Shown: piece after piece, positions 1,901 to 7,831 of the stretch
Position numbering within the stretch: the stretch's first letter is position 1
Layout of the letters: each line of letters opens with the position of its first letter
NCBI RefSeq assembly: GCF_009909205.1
Contig: NZ_JAAAPN010000002.1
Span: 186,001 to 250,000 of the forward strand
Direction: 5' to 3'
DNA from: Aquabacterium fontiphilum
GTDB lineage: Bacteria > Pseudomonadota > Gammaproteobacteria > Burkholderiales > Burkholderiaceae_C
DNA: 64,000 nt
Program-made: the position numbers and the translations under genes
Notes under the pieces: model-generated
What the model saw: only the letters and a program-made list of their open reading frames with translations
What the model was told of the DNA's origin: nothing
The model's database searches: none

Positions 1901-2464
1901 TCAGTGCCCCACCGGCGGGGGCGGGTAGCGCACGGCCAGGATCTCCAGCCGCTCCAGACCCCCGGGGGTCATCAGCGCCACCTCGTCGCCCTCGCGAGCC
2001 CGCAGCAGGGCGCGCGCGATCGGTGACACCCAGCTCACCTCGCCTCGCAGGTTGTCGACCTCGTCGATGCCTTTGATCGTGATGGTGCGCTGTTCGCCTG
2101 CCTGGTTCTCGTAGGTCACCGTGGCGCCAAAGAACACCTGGTCGTTGCCGTGGTGCACGCTCGGGTCCACCACCTCGGCGATGTCCAGCCGCCGGGTGAG
2201 GTAGCGGATACGCCGGTCGATCTCGCGCAGGCGCTTCTTGCCATAAAGGTAATCGCCATTCTCGGAGCGGTCGCCGTTGGACGCGGCCCAGCTGACGATG
2301 TCGACCACCTTGGGGCGCTCCACGTCGATGAGGTTGAGCAGTTCGGCCCGCATGCGCTGGTAGCCGTCGGGCGTCATGTAGTTCTTGCCGCCGGCTGGCA
2401 GTGCGGGCAGGGCGACGTCTTCGTCGTCATCGGCCTCGGTTTCCTTGGTGAACGCTTTGCTCAT
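1901..2464 (-). CDS. greB: Transcription elongation factor GreB
   Basis: Binds RNA polymerase and stimulates cleavage of backtracked transcripts. The 187-residue protein has an acidic N-terminal extension (ETEADDDEDVA), then the Gre coiled coil beginning at GGKNYMTPDGYQRMRAEL and a C-terminal FKBP-like half containing GEVSWVSPIARALL. The start at MSKAFTK was chosen because it matches the family N-terminus; an upstream in-frame ATG would add 15 residues of unrelated sequence. The GreB rather than GreA assignment rests on YLYGKKRLREIDRRIRYLTRRLD-type sequence and on the neighbouring spoT. The gene is convergent with spoT. Confidence 0.93.
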   Translation of the reverse strand: MSKAFTKETEADDDEDVALPALPAGGKNYMTPDGYQRMRAELLNLIDVERPKVVDIVSWAASNGDRSENGDYLYGKKRLREIDRRIRYLTRRLDIAEVVDPSVHHGNDQVFFGATVTYENQAGEQRTITIKGIDEVDNLRGEVSWVSPIARALLRAREGDEVALMTPGGLERLEILAVRYPPPPVGH

Positions 2465-2638
2465 GCGGGCGATTGTGCCCAAAACGCTCGCGCACTGGCA
2501 AAGCGCCACTTGTTCACGGCTTGCGCGCTTTTGTCATTTTTCGCGCGTTTCCGGGCCGCCGCACATCTCGCAAAAATGAAATACCTGCCGATATCCCACA
2601 TGAGCCAGTCCACCTGGCATGCATTGGAGGTATGAACG

Positions 2639-3277
2639 ATGTCACGTGTGATTCCGCTCGGTCCGGGCTCCCGCATGCTGACCACCCGTGAGGCCGCTCA
2701 GCGGCTGGGGGTGTCCCTGCGCACGGTGCAGTTGTGGGTGGAGGCCGACATCCTGCCTGCTGCCCGCACCCCGGGTGGCCATCGGCGTATCCCCTACAAC
2801 GCGGTCGAGGCACTGGCCCTGAGTACCGGCCTGGGTGGTGATCCCAGCACGATGCGTGGCCGCCGCGACGGGGAAATGGCAGCACGCAGCCGCCCCATGG
2901 ATGTGCTCATCGTCGCAGATGACCCGCAGTGGCAGGCGCAGTGTGACCAGGCGCTGGCGCCGTTCGGCTCGGCCGTGACCCTGCGTTATGCCGAGACCGG
3001 CTACCTGGCACTGCTACAGATCGGCCAGAAGGTGCCGGATCTGCTGATCACACACCTGGAGCTGCCGGGCATGGATGGCATGGCGATGCTGCACACGCTG
3101 GAGCGGGCCGAGTCGATTTCGGGCCTGCGGGTGCTGGTCATGACACCGCTGGACGACCATGAGCTGGCCCGTCGTGGCGGGCTGCCGCCTTCGGTCGAAC
3201 GCATGCCATGGCCAGCCTCGGCCGAGGCCGTGGCGGTCCGCGTGGGCCGATGGTTACTGGGGCAACGGGTGTCCTGA
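2639..3277 (+). CDS. MerR-type helix-turn-helix protein with degenerate receiver domain
   Basis: A 212-residue protein with two parts. Residues about 13-60 are a MerR/excisionase-type winged helix (LTTREAAQRLGVSLRTVQLW, then TPGGHRRIPYNAVEAL). Residues about 84-205 fold like a response-regulator receiver (DVLIVADD at the start, PGMDGMAML after the active-site strand), but the phospho-acceptor aspartate position is His139 (LLITHLELPGMDG) and the usual Lys-Pro reads Met-Pro. It is therefore a pseudo-receiver, probably a protein-interaction module. The GGAGG at 2626-2630 lies 8 bases before the ATG. It is the first gene of a co-directional cassette with a kinase-like protein, a true receiver and a LOV kinase, and is the only one of them with a DNA-binding domain. 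Confidence 0.75.
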   Translation: MSRVIPLGPGSRMLTTREAAQRLGVSLRTVQLWVEADILPAARTPGGHRRIPYNAVEALALSTGLGGDPSTMRGRRDGEMAARSRPMDVLIVADDPQWQAQCDQALAPFGSAVTLRYAETGYLALLQIGQKVPDLLITHLELPGMDGMAMLHTLERAESISGLRVLVMTPLDDHELARRGGLPPSVERMPWPASAEAVAVRVGRWLLGQRVS

Positions 3278-3307
3278 GCCACCCGACAAGGCACGAGGAG
3301 GCCGATC

Positions 3308-4417
3308 ATGAACGACGCATTCAGGCTGCTGTTTGATCAAGTCAAGAGCGGGGTGGTCTGGGTGCAGCGCAACGGCACCGTGCGCTACGCCAACAAGGCG
3401 GCGGTGCAGATGACGCCGGTGATGCTGGGTCAGCCCATGATGGACCCGGTGGCCGAGCGCACGGTCAAGGCGGCCGGTCAGGGCATGCTCACTTTGCCCT
3501 TCCCCTTCGAGTTGACCACGCAGGAAGCCCACCCGGACAGCATCCGCGCGGTGGTGATCAATGCCCCGGTCGGGCAGGACCTGATGGTCGTGATGAACAA
3601 CGTCTCGGAAGAGCGTTGGTATTCGCAGGCCCTCGAGAACCTCATCGGCTACATCGAAGCCGAAATGGCCGAGCCCATCGAGCTGCTGTCACGGCAACTG
3701 CCACAGATCGAGCGCATGGCCAAGCAGCCTTCGCAAGGCGAGATCGAGCAGATGGCGCGCAACGCCCGCGCGTTGTCGAGCAAGCTGGGCAAACTGCGCG
3801 ACCTGGTGGCGGTGTTTGGCGAAAGCGCCATCCAGCGAGACGAGCGTGTGCTGGTCAACGAACTGATCCAGGCCGCGCTGGTCGATGTGATCCACCAGGC
3901 CCGGGCACGCAACATCACCGTGGCCACCCAGGGGCTGGAAGACGAGATGCCCCCCGTCTACGGCAGTCGCCATTGGCTGGTGCGGGCCATGTCGGAGTAT
4001 CTGGAGCAGTCCATCCGTAGCGCGCAGCCCGGCGGGCTGATCGAGCTGTCGGTTCAGGCAGTGGGCACTCGGGTGATCGTGCGGGCACGCAACCGCGGCC
4101 TGTTCGTCTCCAACCACGAACGACGCAGTGCCTTCGTGCCCTTCGGCGTGGGCGACAACGCCCGCCCGCAGGCCGAGCGCACCAGCATCGGCCTGGCGCT
4201 CAGCGAACGCATCGTGGCGCAGCATGGCGGCTCGGTGCGCATCGAAGACGAGTTCGACGCCGTGGATTTCGTGCTTGAGATCCCGGCCGGTGCCCCGGCC
4301 ACCCAGGACGCCCAGCTGTCGGTGGAACAGGCCCAGCGGTATGCGCGGGATATGGCGCAACTGCTGGCACGCAGCATGAGCAAGCGGGTCGCTCCTGAAG
4401 CGCCTGCAAAGGAGTGA
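3308..4417 (+). CDS. PAS/histidine-kinase-like protein without phospho-acceptor histidine
   Basis: A 369-residue soluble protein. Residues about 10-110 resemble a PAS domain (SGVVWVQRNGTVRYANKAAVQM). Residues about 115-175 are a helical dimerisation-like segment (ALENLIGYIEAEMAEPIELL) with no H-box histidine. Residues about 185-330 resemble a HATPase_c domain (a G2-box-like IGLALSERIVAQHGGSVRI), but the N-box asparagine and the DxGxG box are poorly kept (ARNRGLF). It is probably a pseudokinase or scaffold rather than an active kinase. The ATG follows GAGGAGG at a good distance, and the next gene, a CheY-like receiver, begins 3 bases after its stop, so the two are likely co-translated. Confidence 0.65.
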   Translation: MNDAFRLLFDQVKSGVVWVQRNGTVRYANKAAVQMTPVMLGQPMMDPVAERTVKAAGQGMLTLPFPFELTTQEAHPDSIRAVVINAPVGQDLMVVMNNVSEERWYSQALENLIGYIEAEMAEPIELLSRQLPQIERMAKQPSQGEIEQMARNARALSSKLGKLRDLVAVFGESAIQRDERVLVNELIQAALVDVIHQARARNITVATQGLEDEMPPVYGSRHWLVRAMSEYLEQSIRSAQPGGLIELSVQAVGTRVIVRARNRGLFVSNHERRSAFVPFGVGDNARPQAERTSIGLALSERIVAQHGGSVRIEDEFDAVDFVLEIPAGAPATQDAQLSVEQAQRYARDMAQLLARSMSKRVAPEAPAKE

Positions 4418-4420
4418 ACC

Positions 4421-4798
4421 ATGACACACCGCATCCTCATCGTGGAAGACCAGTCAGACATCTGCAAGCTGATCCGCATGACGCTGGAGTTCGGCGACTT
4501 CGAGATCCACGAAGCCCATGATGGCGAAACCGGCCTGAACATGGCTCGCGCGATCAAGCCGCATGTGATGCTGCTGGACGTGATGATGCCGGGGCTGCTG
4601 GATGGCTACCAGGTCTGCAGCCGCATCAAGGCCGACCCCGCCCTGCAGCAGATCCAGGTGGTGATGTTGACTGCGCGTGGGCAGGTCACCGACATCGCCG
4701 CGGGCGAGGCTGCAGGGGCAGATGCCTACCTGGTCAAGCCCTTCAGCCCGCTGGAGCTGATCGAGCGCGTGGAAGCCATCGCCGCTGCCTCGGTCTGA
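4421..4798 (+). CDS. CheY-like single-domain response regulator
   Basis: A stand-alone receiver of 125 residues with all key positions present: the acidic pocket (VEDQSD), the phospho-acceptor Asp53 (MLLDVMMPG), the switch Thr (VMLTAR) and the Lys-Pro pair (LVKPFSPLEL). It has no output domain, so it must act by protein contact or pass phosphate on. It has its own strong ribosome site (AAAGGAG) and sits between the kinase-like protein and the LOV kinase; the latter is the likely phospho-donor. Confidence 0.88.
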   Translation: MTHRILIVEDQSDICKLIRMTLEFGDFEIHEAHDGETGLNMARAIKPHVMLLDVMMPGLLDGYQVCSRIKADPALQQIQVVMLTARGQVTDIAAGEAAGADAYLVKPFSPLELIERVEAIAAASV

Positions 4799-4831
4799 CG
4801 GCCTGCCTTCACCCGCCATGGGGAGACTGCC

Positions 4832-7600
4832 ATGGGCGATGCCAATGCGAACGACGAGCTGCCGGAGCAGGTGCTGCGGCTGATGGGCCGGCTGGAGCGC
4901 TTCACGGGCAAGATGTCGGTGACGCAGGCCGTCTCGCTGATCGTCTTGACCGGCGCGCTGGTCACGACCCTGATCACCGGGCCAGTCTGGCTGGCCGAGC
5001 AGCATCGCCAACAGGCGTCCTTCGAGTCGGAGGTGCGGCGCTGGCAGACGCAGTTGCAGGATCGCCTGGATTACCGGGCACTGATGCTGCACCAGATGGC
5101 GTCCATGGCCTGGCTTGCGCCGTCGGCGCAAGCGTCGGGCGATGTGGCGCCTGCCTGGCTGCCCCCTGCGGCGGTGATCTTGCCTGGATCTCCAGGTGGC
5201 CAGATGGACTGGCCGACCTTGACGGCTGGCTGGCGTCTTGCGCCCGATCAGGTTGCAGCGATTCACAGTTGCCTGTCGCGTGACCAGCGCGGCGTTCAGA
5301 CGCGCCTGTGCGACATGGGCGGTGCAGGGGCTGATGAACTGGGTGTGCTGGCCGCCCCACTGCCCACCCAAGGTGGTGGCTGGCTGCTGTGGAAAGTCGC
5401 AGCCCGGGACGTGCTGCCCGTCGCGCCCAGAACCGCAGCGCGATGGCAGCTTACCGGGCGCTTCGTCAGCGGGGCGCAACTGCACGGCCCGACGAGCGGG
5501 CCGTATCACATGCAACTGACCGTCACGCTGGCCGGCCAGCCGATGGCCGTGAGCGTGATGGGCACCCCGGTATCACGCAGCTTGTCCGAGCAAACGTCCC
5601 AGTGGATGGGGGTGGCAGCGGCCGGTGTCGCGGGGTTGATCTTCACGCTCAGTGGCATTCACGTCTACTTGATGCTGATCTCGACCCGACGGCGCGCGCG
5701 CGAGATGGCTCGAGACATGAATCTGGCGTTGCAGCGCACCCAGTCGCGCAACCAGGTGGTGATGGACACGGCGCCGGATGCGATCGTGATGACCGATGCT
5801 CAAGGGCGAGTGAGCTGGTGCAACCAGGCCACCACGAGCATCTTTGGCCGCACCACCGAGGATCTGATGGGACACGCGGTGTCCGAGGTGTTGCCCAGTC
5901 TGGGCCACAGCGAGCTGACGGCCTGGTTCGAGCAACACGGGTTTTCGAACCGCGTGATCGGCTTTGAAACCGTGGGCCTGCGCAATGACGGGAGCACGGC
6001 CTTTCCAGTATCGGTGTCGGCCAGCCGGGCCGAACTCGACGGCGAGTGGATCCTGACTTTCATCGTGCGCGACACGACCGACGCCAAGTGGGCTGAGCAA
6101 GAGTTGCTGTTGCGCGACCGCGCCATCTCATCGTCGGCCGACGGGGTGGTGATCGTGTCCATGACGCTGCCCAACTCGCCCATCATCTACGTTAACCACG
6201 CCTTCGAGGAAATCACTGGCTATGAGGCGCATGAGGCGCTGGGTATGAACTGCCGTTTCCTGCAGGGCAGCGACACCGACCAGCCGGCCATCGAGGTCAT
6301 ACGGAAGGCGGTTGCCAGCGGAGAGGCTTGCCACGTGGTGCTGCGCAACTACCGCAAGAACGGCACCATGTTCTACAACGAGCTGGCGCTGTCGCCCGTC
6401 GCCAATGCCGAAGGGCAGATCACGCACTATGTGGGTGTGCAGACCGACATCACCGAGCGTATTGCGGCCGAGCAGGTGCTGCACCTGCGCACGGAGCGTC
6501 TCAACGCGGTGTTCGACCTCAGCCCGGATGGCTTTGTCGTGCTTGACAAGCGCGGCGAGGTCAGCATCGTCAACCCGTCGTTCGAGCGCATGACCGGCCT
6601 GATGGCGGGCGATCTGGTGGGGCTGTCGCGCGATGCCTTCGAAGAGCAGTTGATGGTGCGTTGTCACGCACCTGGCTCGGTCGAGGCGCATGCCGCCGGC
6701 ATCATTCCGGCCTCCGACGGCGATGATGCGCAGGCGGTACGCCGCGAGGTGCTGCAGATGCACACGCCGTGCCCACGGACGCTGGTGCGCAGCGTGCGTC
6801 AGGGGGGACATGACAACGAGACGGTCATGTACTTCCGCGACATCACGCACGAGCTGGAGGTCGACCGCATGAAGAGCGAGTTCCTGGCGATGGCGGCGCA
6901 CGAGCTGCGCACGCCGATGGTCAGCATCTTCGGCTTCACGGAGCTGCTGCTCAAGCGGCAGTTCAACGACGAGCGCCGCAATGACATGCTCGGCACCATC
7001 CACCGGCAGGCATCCGTGCTGATCAACCTCGTCAACGAGCTGCTGGATCTGGCGCGCATCGAGGCGCGACGTGGCAAGGACTTCAAGCGTGTGGCGCAGC
7101 CACTGCAGCCCCTGGTGCAGGCGGTGATCGATGGCCTGCTCGTTCACAACGACAGCCGCAAGGTGATGAGCGAGCTGCCAGCCGAGCCCATCTGGGTGGA
7201 TGTGGACACGGAGAAGCTCTCACAGGCGCTGACCAATGTGCTGTCCAACGCCTACAAGTATTCGCCGCACGGCGGTGAGATCGAGCTGGATGTGGTCTGG
7301 CGGGACCGGGATGGCCGGCTGGAGGCCGGCATGCGGGTCACCGACCACGGCATCGGGATGACACAGGAGCAGTTGTCACGTGTGTTCGAGCGCTTCTATC
7401 GCGCCGACACCTCGGGCAACATCCCGGGCACCGGTCTGGGCATGACCATCGTGAAGGAGATTGTCGAGTTGCACGGGGGGCAGGTCAGCATCAACAGCGA
7501 GCACGGTGTGGGCACGACGGTGACCCTGTGGGTGCCGGTGCGACCGGAGGCGGCTGCCCTGGCCAGCCAGGTCACCTCCGAGCCTGCCGAGGTGAACTGA
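4832..7600 (+). CDS. Membrane sensor histidine kinase with LOV (blue-light) and PAS domains
   Basis: A 922-residue kinase. Two membrane helices (about 30-54 and 258-283) enclose a periplasmic region of about 200 residues. Three PAS-type domains follow: about 300-420, 428-555 and 557-680. The second is a LOV domain: GMNCRFLQG contains Cys474 at the flavin-adduct position, followed by RNYRKNG, FYNELALSPV and GVQTD, which supply the conserved flavin-contacting Asn and Gln residues. The HisKA domain carries His690 (AAHELRTPMVSIFGF) and the HATPase domain has DHGIGM and GTGLGM. There is no attached receiver; the CheY-like protein just upstream is the likely partner. In the LOV family blue light forms a cysteine-FMN adduct that changes kinase activity; for this protein that is inference from the conserved residues. 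GGGGAG precedes the ATG. Confidence 0.88.
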   Translation: MGDANANDELPEQVLRLMGRLERFTGKMSVTQAVSLIVLTGALVTTLITGPVWLAEQHRQQASFESEVRRWQTQLQDRLDYRALMLHQMASMAWLAPSAQASGDVAPAWLPPAAVILPGSPGGQMDWPTLTAGWRLAPDQVAAIHSCLSRDQRGVQTRLCDMGGAGADELGVLAAPLPTQGGGWLLWKVAARDVLPVAPRTAARWQLTGRFVSGAQLHGPTSGPYHMQLTVTLAGQPMAVSVMGTPVSRSLSEQTSQWMGVAAAGVAGLIFTLSGIHVYLMLISTRRRAREMARDMNLALQRTQSRNQVVMDTAPDAIVMTDAQGRVSWCNQATTSIFGRTTEDLMGHAVSEVLPSLGHSELTAWFEQHGFSNRVIGFETVGLRNDGSTAFPVSVSASRAELDGEWILTFIVRDTTDAKWAEQELLLRDRAISSSADGVVIVSMTLPNSPIIYVNHAFEEITGYEAHEALGMNCRFLQGSDTDQPAIEVIRKAVASGEACHVVLRNYRKNGTMFYNELALSPVANAEGQITHYVGVQTDITERIAAEQVLHLRTERLNAVFDLSPDGFVVLDKRGEVSIVNPSFERMTGLMAGDLVGLSRDAFEEQLMVRCHAPGSVEAHAAGIIPASDGDDAQAVRREVLQMHTPCPRTLVRSVRQGGHDNETVMYFRDITHELEVDRMKSEFLAMAAHELRTPMVSIFGFTELLLKRQFNDERRNDMLGTIHRQASVLINLVNELLDLARIEARRGKDFKRVAQPLQPLVQAVIDGLLVHNDSRKVMSELPAEPIWVDVDTEKLSQALTNVLSNAYKYSPHGGEIELDVVWRDRDGRLEAGMRVTDHGIGMTQEQLSRVFERFYRADTSGNIPGTGLGMTIVKEIVELHGGQVSINSEHGVGTTVTLWVPVRPEAAALASQVTSEPAEVN

Positions 7601-7618: not shown

Positions 7619-7644
7619 AAACCGCAGCCCGAAGGCTGCGGTTT
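7619..7644 (-). terminator. Rho-independent terminator of the tRNA-Arg pair
   Basis: A perfect 11-bp stem (7619-7629 with 7634-7644) around a CGAA loop. Read on the minus strand it is followed by TTTTTCTTTTTG, so it ends the tRNA transcript. On the plus strand it may also stop reading from the LOV kinase gene, though the T run there is short. Confidence 0.85.
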
Positions 7645-7651
7645 GCAAGAT

Positions 7652-7728
7652 TGGCGCGGCTGGCAGGATTCGAACCCACGACCCCTTGGTTCGTAGCCAA
7701 GTACTCTATCCAACTGAGCTACAGCCGC
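7652..7728 (-). tRNA. tRNA-Arg (anticodon ACG), copy 1
   Basis: A 77-nt cloverleaf on the minus strand: acceptor GCGGCTG pairs with CAGCCGC, D-arm contains TAGCTCAGTTGG, anticodon stem CTTGG/CCAAG holds the loop CTACGAA with anticodon ACG, T-loop TTCGAAT, and an encoded CCA end. It reads CGN arginine codons after A34-to-inosine editing (known for this tRNA family). It is identical to the copy at 7755-7831. Confidence 0.97.
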
Positions 7729-7754
7729 GCGGACCTGTTTTCACAGGAGGTATC

Positions 7755-7831
7755 TGGCGCGGCTGGCAGGATTCGAACCCACGACCCCTTGGTTCGTAGC
7801 CAAGTACTCTATCCAACTGAGCTACAGCCGC
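7755..7831 (-). tRNA. tRNA-Arg (anticodon ACG), copy 2
   Basis: Identical in sequence to the copy at 7652-7728, 26 bases away and in the same orientation, also with an encoded CCA. The pair is probably transcribed together from a promoter above 7831 and stopped at the hairpin at 7619-7644. Confidence 0.97.

Follow-up and report, generated by a model that had tools for sequence, protein, structure and literature searches.

The stretch of DNA analysed here, referred to below as the window, comprises 64,000 nucleotides (nt) from Aquabacterium fontiphilum, a member of the Burkholderiales (contig NZ_JAAAPN010000002.1, positions 186,001 to 250,000), and the genome containing it is 3.65 Mb in size. 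Within 2639-7600 of the window, four co-directional open reading frames (ORFs), termed A, B, C and D, are separated by successive gaps of 30, 3 and 33 nt. They encode a DNA-binding protein with an altered receiver (A), a kinase-like PAS protein that lacks the phospho-acceptor His (B), a CheY-like response regulator (C) and a membrane histidine kinase with a LOV domain (D). ORFs and Pfam matches agree with the four genes and domains that had been proposed for this segment in a reading of the sequence only. Gene starts were assigned mechanically, and many of the genomes of relatives are drafts.

Domains of the four genes

Gene A (2639..3277, + strand) encodes a 212-residue protein (structure model mean pLDDT, the predicted local confidence score, 89.5) with Pfam matches to HTH_17 (9.6e-13), MerR (4.9e-9) and Response_reg (2.3e-10), which bear out the DNA-binding head ascribed to it earlier. 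Its N-terminal winged helix-turn-helix (HTH) domain of MerR/excisionase type (residues 13-60; 2675..2818, +) matches PF00376 and PF13411 above cut-off, with PF12728 scoring better, and is 74-96% identical across the genus loci. Members of the MerR family have a dimerising coiled coil and bind at a stretched promoter spacer. In the receiver-like domain (about residues 87-205; 2897..3253, +), the phospho-acceptor position is taken by His139 (3053-3055) and that of the conserved Lys by Trp191 (3209-3211), and A is thus classified as a pseudo-receiver protein.

Gene B (3308..4417, +; 369 residues) matches HATPase_c at 1.3e-8 and PAS_8 just under its cut-off, and no Pfam match to HisKA appears up to E 1. 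An AlphaFold model (mean pLDDT 80.1) contains a PAS domain, a two-helix DHp-like region, an ATPase-like domain with a low-confidence lid (residues 266-289), and a tail helix. In the DHp-like region (residues 99-171 by model secondary structure; 3602..3820, +), Ala118 (3659-3661) replaces the His of the H-box, and in the ATPase-like domain (residues 181-327; 3848..4288, +), the N-box Asn and the G1 Asp are replaced by Gln234 and Asn262. The HATPase_c match, the kinase-fold model and Ala118 together indicate a pseudo-histidine kinase, i.e., a kinase fold without the phospho-acceptor His, which is predicted to be inactive. A and B are the two defective partners that the sequence-only reading had recognized. 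Alignments and the model also delineate a conserved C-terminal helix of B (residues 335-361; 4310..4390, +) containing QAQRYARDMAQLLAR, which is a hallmark of the B family.

Gene C (4421..4798, +; 125 residues) is a CheY-like single-domain response regulator (Response_reg, 1.1e-25) with the Asp pocket, the phospho-acceptor Asp, Thr and Lys and no output domain. Asp53 (codon 4577-4579) is retained in 50/50 aligned rows, as are D10, T84 and K106; these rows include the C-like genes of loci L072 and L085. This is consistent with C being a working receiver, as had been proposed.

Gene D (4832..7600, +; 922 residues) has PAS matches in three stretches, arranged as PAS-LOV-PAS, as well as HisKA (3.5e-18) and HATPase_c (1.1e-28), and its membrane placement is predicted from a reading of the sequence. 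The N-terminal sensor region (residues 1-300; 4832..5731, +) matches 0 families of NCBIfam. In the kinase part (residues 680-904; 6869..7543, +; His690 codon 6899-6901), the HisKA kinase boxes are complete (HELRTP, NVLSNAYKYS, DHGIGM and GTGLGM), and HELRTP is present in all 48 D copies compared. The LOV domain (residues 428-550; 6113..6481, +) has its best PDB match in 7r5n, 'Sensory box protein' (3.9e-36), and contains the motifs GMNCRFLQG, RNYRKNG, FYNEL and GVQTDIT. LOV domains are blue-light sensors acting via a cysteine–flavin mononucleotide (FMN) adduct; the adduct Cys is residue 474 (codon 6251-6253), exactly as numbered previously. Cys474 and the flavin-site Asn, Arg and Gln residues are all in place in the window protein, as expected from the sequence of a LOV photoreceptor.

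The B family and its partners outside the genus

Several lines of evidence point to a maintained protein family with lost catalytic residues. The H-box place of B is occupied by a residue other than His in 48 of 49 sequences (19 from the genus and 30 from outside), and the N-box Asn is replaced in 40 of the 49, including all 19 from the genus. The G1 Asp is likewise retained in 0/19 genus sequences and in 13/30 outside. The ratio of nonsynonymous to synonymous substitution rates (dN/dS) of B is 0.066-0.122 in four groups of close relatives, indicating purifying selection. Of the 12 invariant columns in a 36-row alignment, 8 fall in the C-terminal stretch P-[TA]-G-A-P ... QAQ-YA-D...L..R, as do 12 of the 24 in a 13-row alignment. 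Among 25 outside representatives, from which five partial, odd or near-duplicate rows were left out (L106b, L148, L173, L179 and L188), the mean majority frequency is 0.74 in the tail core, 0.50 in the ATPase core and 0.40 in both PAS and DHp. When a profile of the tail was run against the ORFs mapped up to that point, no strong match to any other protein appeared, the best having E 0.0034.

In comparisons with known structures, the B profile matches PDB sequences of HK853 and similar kinases best, with DivL (4q20) tenth at 1.3e-16. A Foldseek search with the B model gives chain 4q20_B the highest target-normalised TM-score, 0.75, among the 50 matches listed, although by E-value it ranks 21st.

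Scans for the B family found it only in Burkholderiales; in the genome scans, scoring was confined to a few top candidates per genome, and some members may have been missed. A profile made from 13 sequences detects B in 26/399 genomes and 15/141 genera of the family at E<=1e-40. In the order, 23/399 genomes have a match at E<=1e-20, seven strong (E 4e-60 or better) and 16 partial (E 1.7e-24 or weaker). In the class, the only match among 274 genomes at E<=1e-35 is the window's own genome, and none of 72,556 plasmid records has a match at E<=1e-10.

Twenty-nine B loci were mapped outside the greB-type site described below: one in an outgroup metagenome-assembled genome (MAG; L172), a second locus in the genus genome G176, and 27 more. 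Profile scores served to assign A and D homologues, over stretches no longer than 19 kb. Every one of the 29 contains a CheY of the C type as well as a kinase of the D family scoring 299-394 bits; additional D-family copies reach 252-349 bits and the other kinases there 46-148 bits. B and C overlap or lie no more than 65 nt apart in 28 of them; in L188, 768 nt separate the two. The usual place of D is downstream of C, with exceptions in L118 (upstream of B), L144 and L145 (divergent) and L148 (about 4 kb away). Proteins combining a MerR-type HTH with a receiver (MerR-REC), like A, occur in 17 of the 29. One locus, L106 (G133), carries two B genes, one full-length and a shorter one which is the copy adjoining C, together with a MerR-REC and two D-family kinases.

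The loss of catalytic residues with retention of the fold would also be seen if B were a kinase copy undergoing decay and the other genes belonged to an ordinary two-component system, adjacent only by chance, and C- and D-type genes do occur without B in many genomes. This explanation is very improbable given the dN/dS of 0.07-0.12, the conserved tail, and the presence of both C and D in 29/29 mapped B loci.

Twenty further stretches without a previously known B were chosen from a C list (50 places) and a D list. MerR-REC is present in 12 of these and a D-family kinase (>250 bits) in 13, and in two, L258 and L271, a far B homologue (98-100 bits) with a recognisable tail lies between A and C; that of L258 has no His near the H-box place. 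These maps thus give what looks like an old core of MerR-REC, CheY and D-type kinase, to part of which B was added. That this core exists without B makes the link of A with C stronger. Next to MerR-REC in the outgroup loci L109, L110, L180, L181, L267, L269, L270, L272 and L273, there is a further receiver-bearing protein of about 234-287 residues. A C-type CheY scoring 209.8 bits, in the range of the B-linked copies, is present at G011:C20:44077-44442 in a genome in which no B was found.

The LOV domain is less constant than the kinase that carries it. Alignment to a LOV profile shows the adduct Cys in 18/19 genus D copies (Gly in L093) and Cys together with Gln, presumably the classical LOV signalling Gln, in 10/19; outside the genus, the figures are 12/29 and 7/29, where the best D-family kinase was counted for loci without a LOV-like kinase. 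The Gln is replaced by Ala or Thr in L087, L092-L095 and L097-L100, all of which except L092 belong to one tree clade. Among four other LOV-resembling PAS domains in the window's own genome, inspection by eye found none with Cys at the adduct place. The sequence-only reading had described a LOV-kinase cassette, but LOV does not define the system: Cys is missing in 17/29 outside D copies, and, as judged from these alignments, LOV is a replaceable part of the circuit proposed below. D might even be driven by its N-terminal domain, LOV being vestigial or a redox-type flavin domain. The absence of Gln from 9/19 genus copies and of Cys from 1/19, together with the outside losses (four of the 29 having no LOV-like match), would fit this idea, as would the N-terminal sensor being the fastest-evolving part of D (dN/dS 0.24-0.50, against 0.10-0.27 for the kinase; few pairs per group). 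It is nevertheless unlikely: in the window protein Cys474 and the other FMN-site residues are in place, and the LOV dN/dS is low (0.07-0.20).

Loss of B-C-D and fate of A within Aquabacterium

Among 42 genus genomes searched, B is matched at E<=1e-10 in 24. Nineteen of these matches, including that of the window, are orthologues with 71-100% identity; the other five are a distant homologue in G176 (28%) and four partial matches in ORFs of 750-987 residues (E 1e-11 to 1e-14). A is matched in 38 genomes, in G169 and G178 at merely 33-35%, leaving 36 genomes with a greB-linked A. The 36 greB-A neighbourhoods fall into 19 with A-B-C-D in order (a contig end lies within A in L102 and within D in L094) and 17 with A but without B and D, several of them on short contigs. 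A C-like gene is retained in two of the 17, L072 (77%) and L085 (54%), and a search reaching at most 5 kb past A revealed no other remnants of B-C-D. The three genes B, C and D therefore form a unit, present together at one site in 19 of the 42 genomes; in 17 others, which retain A, they are almost always absent en bloc. Conservation of order and position in 19 genus genomes means that the arrangement is beyond chance.

A tree of RelA/SpoT and GreB (36 rows: 35 from the genus, L102 being left out, and one outgroup) requires at least seven changes of B-C-D presence, four of which are forced by well-supported branches. As the outgroup MAG has A-B-C-D at the same greB site (L016), repeated loss of B-C-D is the simplest history. 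The four-gene order proposed earlier thus stands in 19/36 genus genomes with the locus, and one inseparable four-gene cassette does not exist: B-C-D travel together, and A persists without that block in 17 genomes. In G176 (L118), the greB site has neither B nor D, and a distant B-C-D set with D upstream of B lies elsewhere. A membrane gene with a VTT domain (PF09335) follows D in 16 of the 19 cassette loci and A in 15 of the 17 others (in L072, after the remaining C-like gene); none is found in the window locus or its sister L070.

The phospho-acceptor place of A is occupied by Asn in 23, His in seven, Thr in four and Asp in two (L087 and L103) of 36 genus rows, i.e., by a residue other than Asp in 34/36, and the Lys place by a residue other than Lys in 35/36. 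Outside MerR-REC proteins near B (17) or C (12) have the Asp in 29/29 and the Lys in 26/29 (not L172, L175 or L268). Seven MerR-REC paralogues in same-genus genomes (L111-L117) retain the Asp; those of L111-L114, which have both Asp and Lys, adjoin long receiver-bearing kinases. In genomes without B-C-D, dN/dS of A is 0-0.026 for the HTH and 0.059-0.092 for the receiver. In a Foldseek search with the A model, the FrzS pseudo-receiver 2i6f ranks first, with many true receivers close behind. The best reading of these data is that the phospho-site was lost in A within one genus, where A is probably partly autonomous. Some pseudo-receivers are controlled by protein contact or self-association or act constitutively, as described in two reports (PMC12632262, PMC4395418).

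Upstream of A, a conserved DNA block, TCTCGCAAAAATGAAA (2566..2581, +), was recognized by intergenic comparison within the genus. It is present within 3 mismatches in 32/35 genus greB-A regions, 2-89 nt before A (2 nt before the start codon in L081-L084), and in 14/17 genus loci without B-C-D. The whole window contains one match. Elsewhere in 1.04 Mb scanned, there are four 3-mismatch matches, in L078 (inside the cassette), L175, L178 and L185, which is about the expectation from shuffled windows (0.11 per 64 kb); that of L175 is placed shortly before the A gene there, on the opposite strand. TCTCGCAAAAATGAAA is a candidate site for A or part of a promoter. A second motif, GCCGATAA, occurs in 13/35 greB-A regions and resembles the -10 element of flagellar sigma-28 promoters, with a TMAAG-like upstream element that fits in L089-L091, making sigma-28 control of A a candidate mechanism. 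In the window, no exact GCCGATAA is found upstream of A. In the genome containing the window, the pattern has 150 places at <=2 mismatches versus 42 for a reversed control, many of them codon-like, and its sole exact match lies near an ORF presumably encoding a bacterioferritin-like protein. A conserved leader peptide before A was also considered and rejected: a short in-frame ORF ends 3 nt upstream, and by eye its sequence is not kept in relatives.

These data on A bear on the strongest rival, in which A no longer belongs to the circuit in Aquabacterium. In its full form, the locus would consist of two neighbours: B-C-D, a light or membrane two-component unit with a protein-protein output elsewhere, and A, which would act independently and free of phosphorylation to regulate its own locus as well as the VTT gene found behind it in most genus genomes. 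In the 17 genomes that keep A without B-C-D, A is under purifying selection, is followed by the VTT gene in 15 (VTT also follows D in 16/19) and has the TCTCGCAAAAATGAAA block upstream in 14; across the genus, the phospho-site is gone in 34/36. VTT is absent from the window and its sister L070, and the occurrence of MerR-REC near B (17/29) or C (12/20) far outside the genus suggests an old functional tie that counts against separate neighbours. This explanation is serious, if rather doubtful.

Across the genus, the left neighbour of the locus is greB (1901..2509, -; NCBIfam greB equivalog above cut-off), and further to the left in the window is a RelA/SpoT-family gene (81-1898). On the right, two tandem tRNA-Arg(acg) genes (7652..7831, -), with a terminator-like hairpin behind them (7619-7644), separate the locus from hemY, which is followed by a hemX-like gene (match below the curated cut-off). 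A tRNA-Arg gene lies downstream of A also in L079, L080 and L096.

A proposed DivL/DivK-like circuit and its relation to known systems

The B-C-D set resembles the DivL-DivK-DivJ/PleC-CckA system of Caulobacter in combining a PAS pseudokinase without the His, a CheY-like regulator and an active-looking HisKA kinase, and the B model matches DivL (4q20) structurally. Proteins of the DivL family are Alphaproteobacterial, act on CckA, and carry Tyr, or in one species Ala, where the His would be. B falls outside the DivL family proper: it has Ala118, but also Gln234 in the N-box and Asn262 in G1, and is restricted to Burkholderiales in the scans made. Unlike DivL, genus B proteins thus lack the N-box and G1 residues as well, possess a C-terminal helix of their own and are encoded beside their partners, and the B-C-D locus contains no output of the CckA/CtrA type. 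DivL itself, with Tyr in place of His and the other boxes kept, binds DivK~P without kinase activity (PMC4211667). By analogy, B may work like DivL without being a member of its family.

LOV kinases with a response regulator partner include LovK-LovR of Caulobacter and LOV-HK of Brucella, as given in a further paper (PMC4844311). D is similar to these in being a LOV kinase paired with a response regulator, and unlike them it is a membrane-type kinase with HisKA (PF00512). Those two Alphaproteobacterial proteins are soluble HWE/HisKA2 kinases, and to our knowledge neither LovK-LovR nor Brucella LOV-HK has a pseudokinase or MerR-type partner. As for A, regulators with a receiver fold lacking the phospho-acceptor Asp include RitR, ChxR, HP1043 and FrzS (PMC4395418). 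A shares this feature with them and differs in its N-terminal HTH of MerR/excisionase type and in the loss of Asp within one genus, 29/29 outside relatives keeping it. PDB 3cnb, by its entry name a MerR-family DNA-binding response regulator, has a receiver that matches the A profile. Searches of the open-licence literature found no paper joining LOV histidine kinase, MerR, response regulator and blue light, none on a histidine kinase pseudokinase with a single-domain response regulator in Burkholderi-, and none joining BldC, response regulator, receiver, helix-turn-helix and excisionase. The sequence-only reading had called the combination of genes unusual; what sets it apart is that a pseudokinase, B, is conserved together with its C-terminal helix, and that A lost its phospho-site in one genus.

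In the proposed circuit, which resembles DivJ-DivK-DivL with LOV as an added sensor and a DNA-binding protein as companion, D would respond to signals from the periplasm or membrane and, by means of LOV, to blue light, and would set the phosphorylation of C on Asp53. B would not autophosphorylate and most likely would not use ATP; its DHp-like face would read C~P as DivL reads DivK~P, and its C-terminal helix would relay the C~P state to the output or return it to D. The DNA-binding output would be A, keeping a job of its own where B-C-D is lost. As A lacks the Asp in almost every Aquabacterium copy and related genera keep it, A would be controlled by contact with B or C or by self-association, or be constitutive. 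The sequences themselves show the gene content, the co-conservation, which residues are lost or retained, the selection on B and the repeated loss of B-C-D; we infer each phosphotransfer, the B-C contact, the light response and the link from B or C to A, and this circuit as a whole is credible to a degree somewhat short of even.

Several observations weigh against it. L177 (G691) is the sole B of 49 with a His in the H-box (HDLRDP), its N-box being degenerate; this B may be an intermediate or a reversion. The far B homologue of L271 has HEL four residues further on, and the N-box Asn is retained in 9/30 outside sequences; part of the B family may thus be active or bind ATP. The B model has a predicted TM-score (pTM) of 0.60, and in the 25 outside representatives the end of the ATPase domain (0.63) is conserved about as well as the whole tail (0.64). 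No MerR-REC is present in the fetched stretch of 12/29 outside B loci, and as A is kept without B-C-D in 17/36 genus genomes, A may not be the output of B-C-D. Among 150 genomes of the family, profiles find the C type in 34 (E<=1e-35) and the D type in 20 (E<=1e-70), and a single-sequence search finds B in seven (E<=1e-15). The wider spread of the C and D types suggests that B is an add-on, and the core of MerR-REC, CheY and D-type kinase without B weakens the claim that B is essential.

A broader form of the DivL/DivK-like reading is held more tentatively. It supposes a logic of this type that is the Burkholderiales' own. A membrane kinase, exchangeable and in many cases equipped with LOV, would feed a CheY-like regulator, which a dedicated pseudokinase family with its hallmark tail helix would read; subsequently the phospho-site of the MerR-type output would have disappeared in Aquabacterium, the light or membrane signal reaching DNA by protein contact in place of phosphotransfer or the output being freed altogether.

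If the DivL/DivK-like reading is true, the use of a dead kinase to read a response regulator evolved in a second lineage too and is no Caulobacter curiosity, and the locus would offer a compact gene set with a light-sensing input that is convenient for bench work. The genus also provides natural experiments. The copies with a replaced LOV Gln (9/19), including L093, in which Cys is also changed to Gly, are a natural test of the remaining role of LOV, and the several losses of B-C-D with A kept, together with the loss of the Asp in A, let one ask how a response regulator outlives its kinase.

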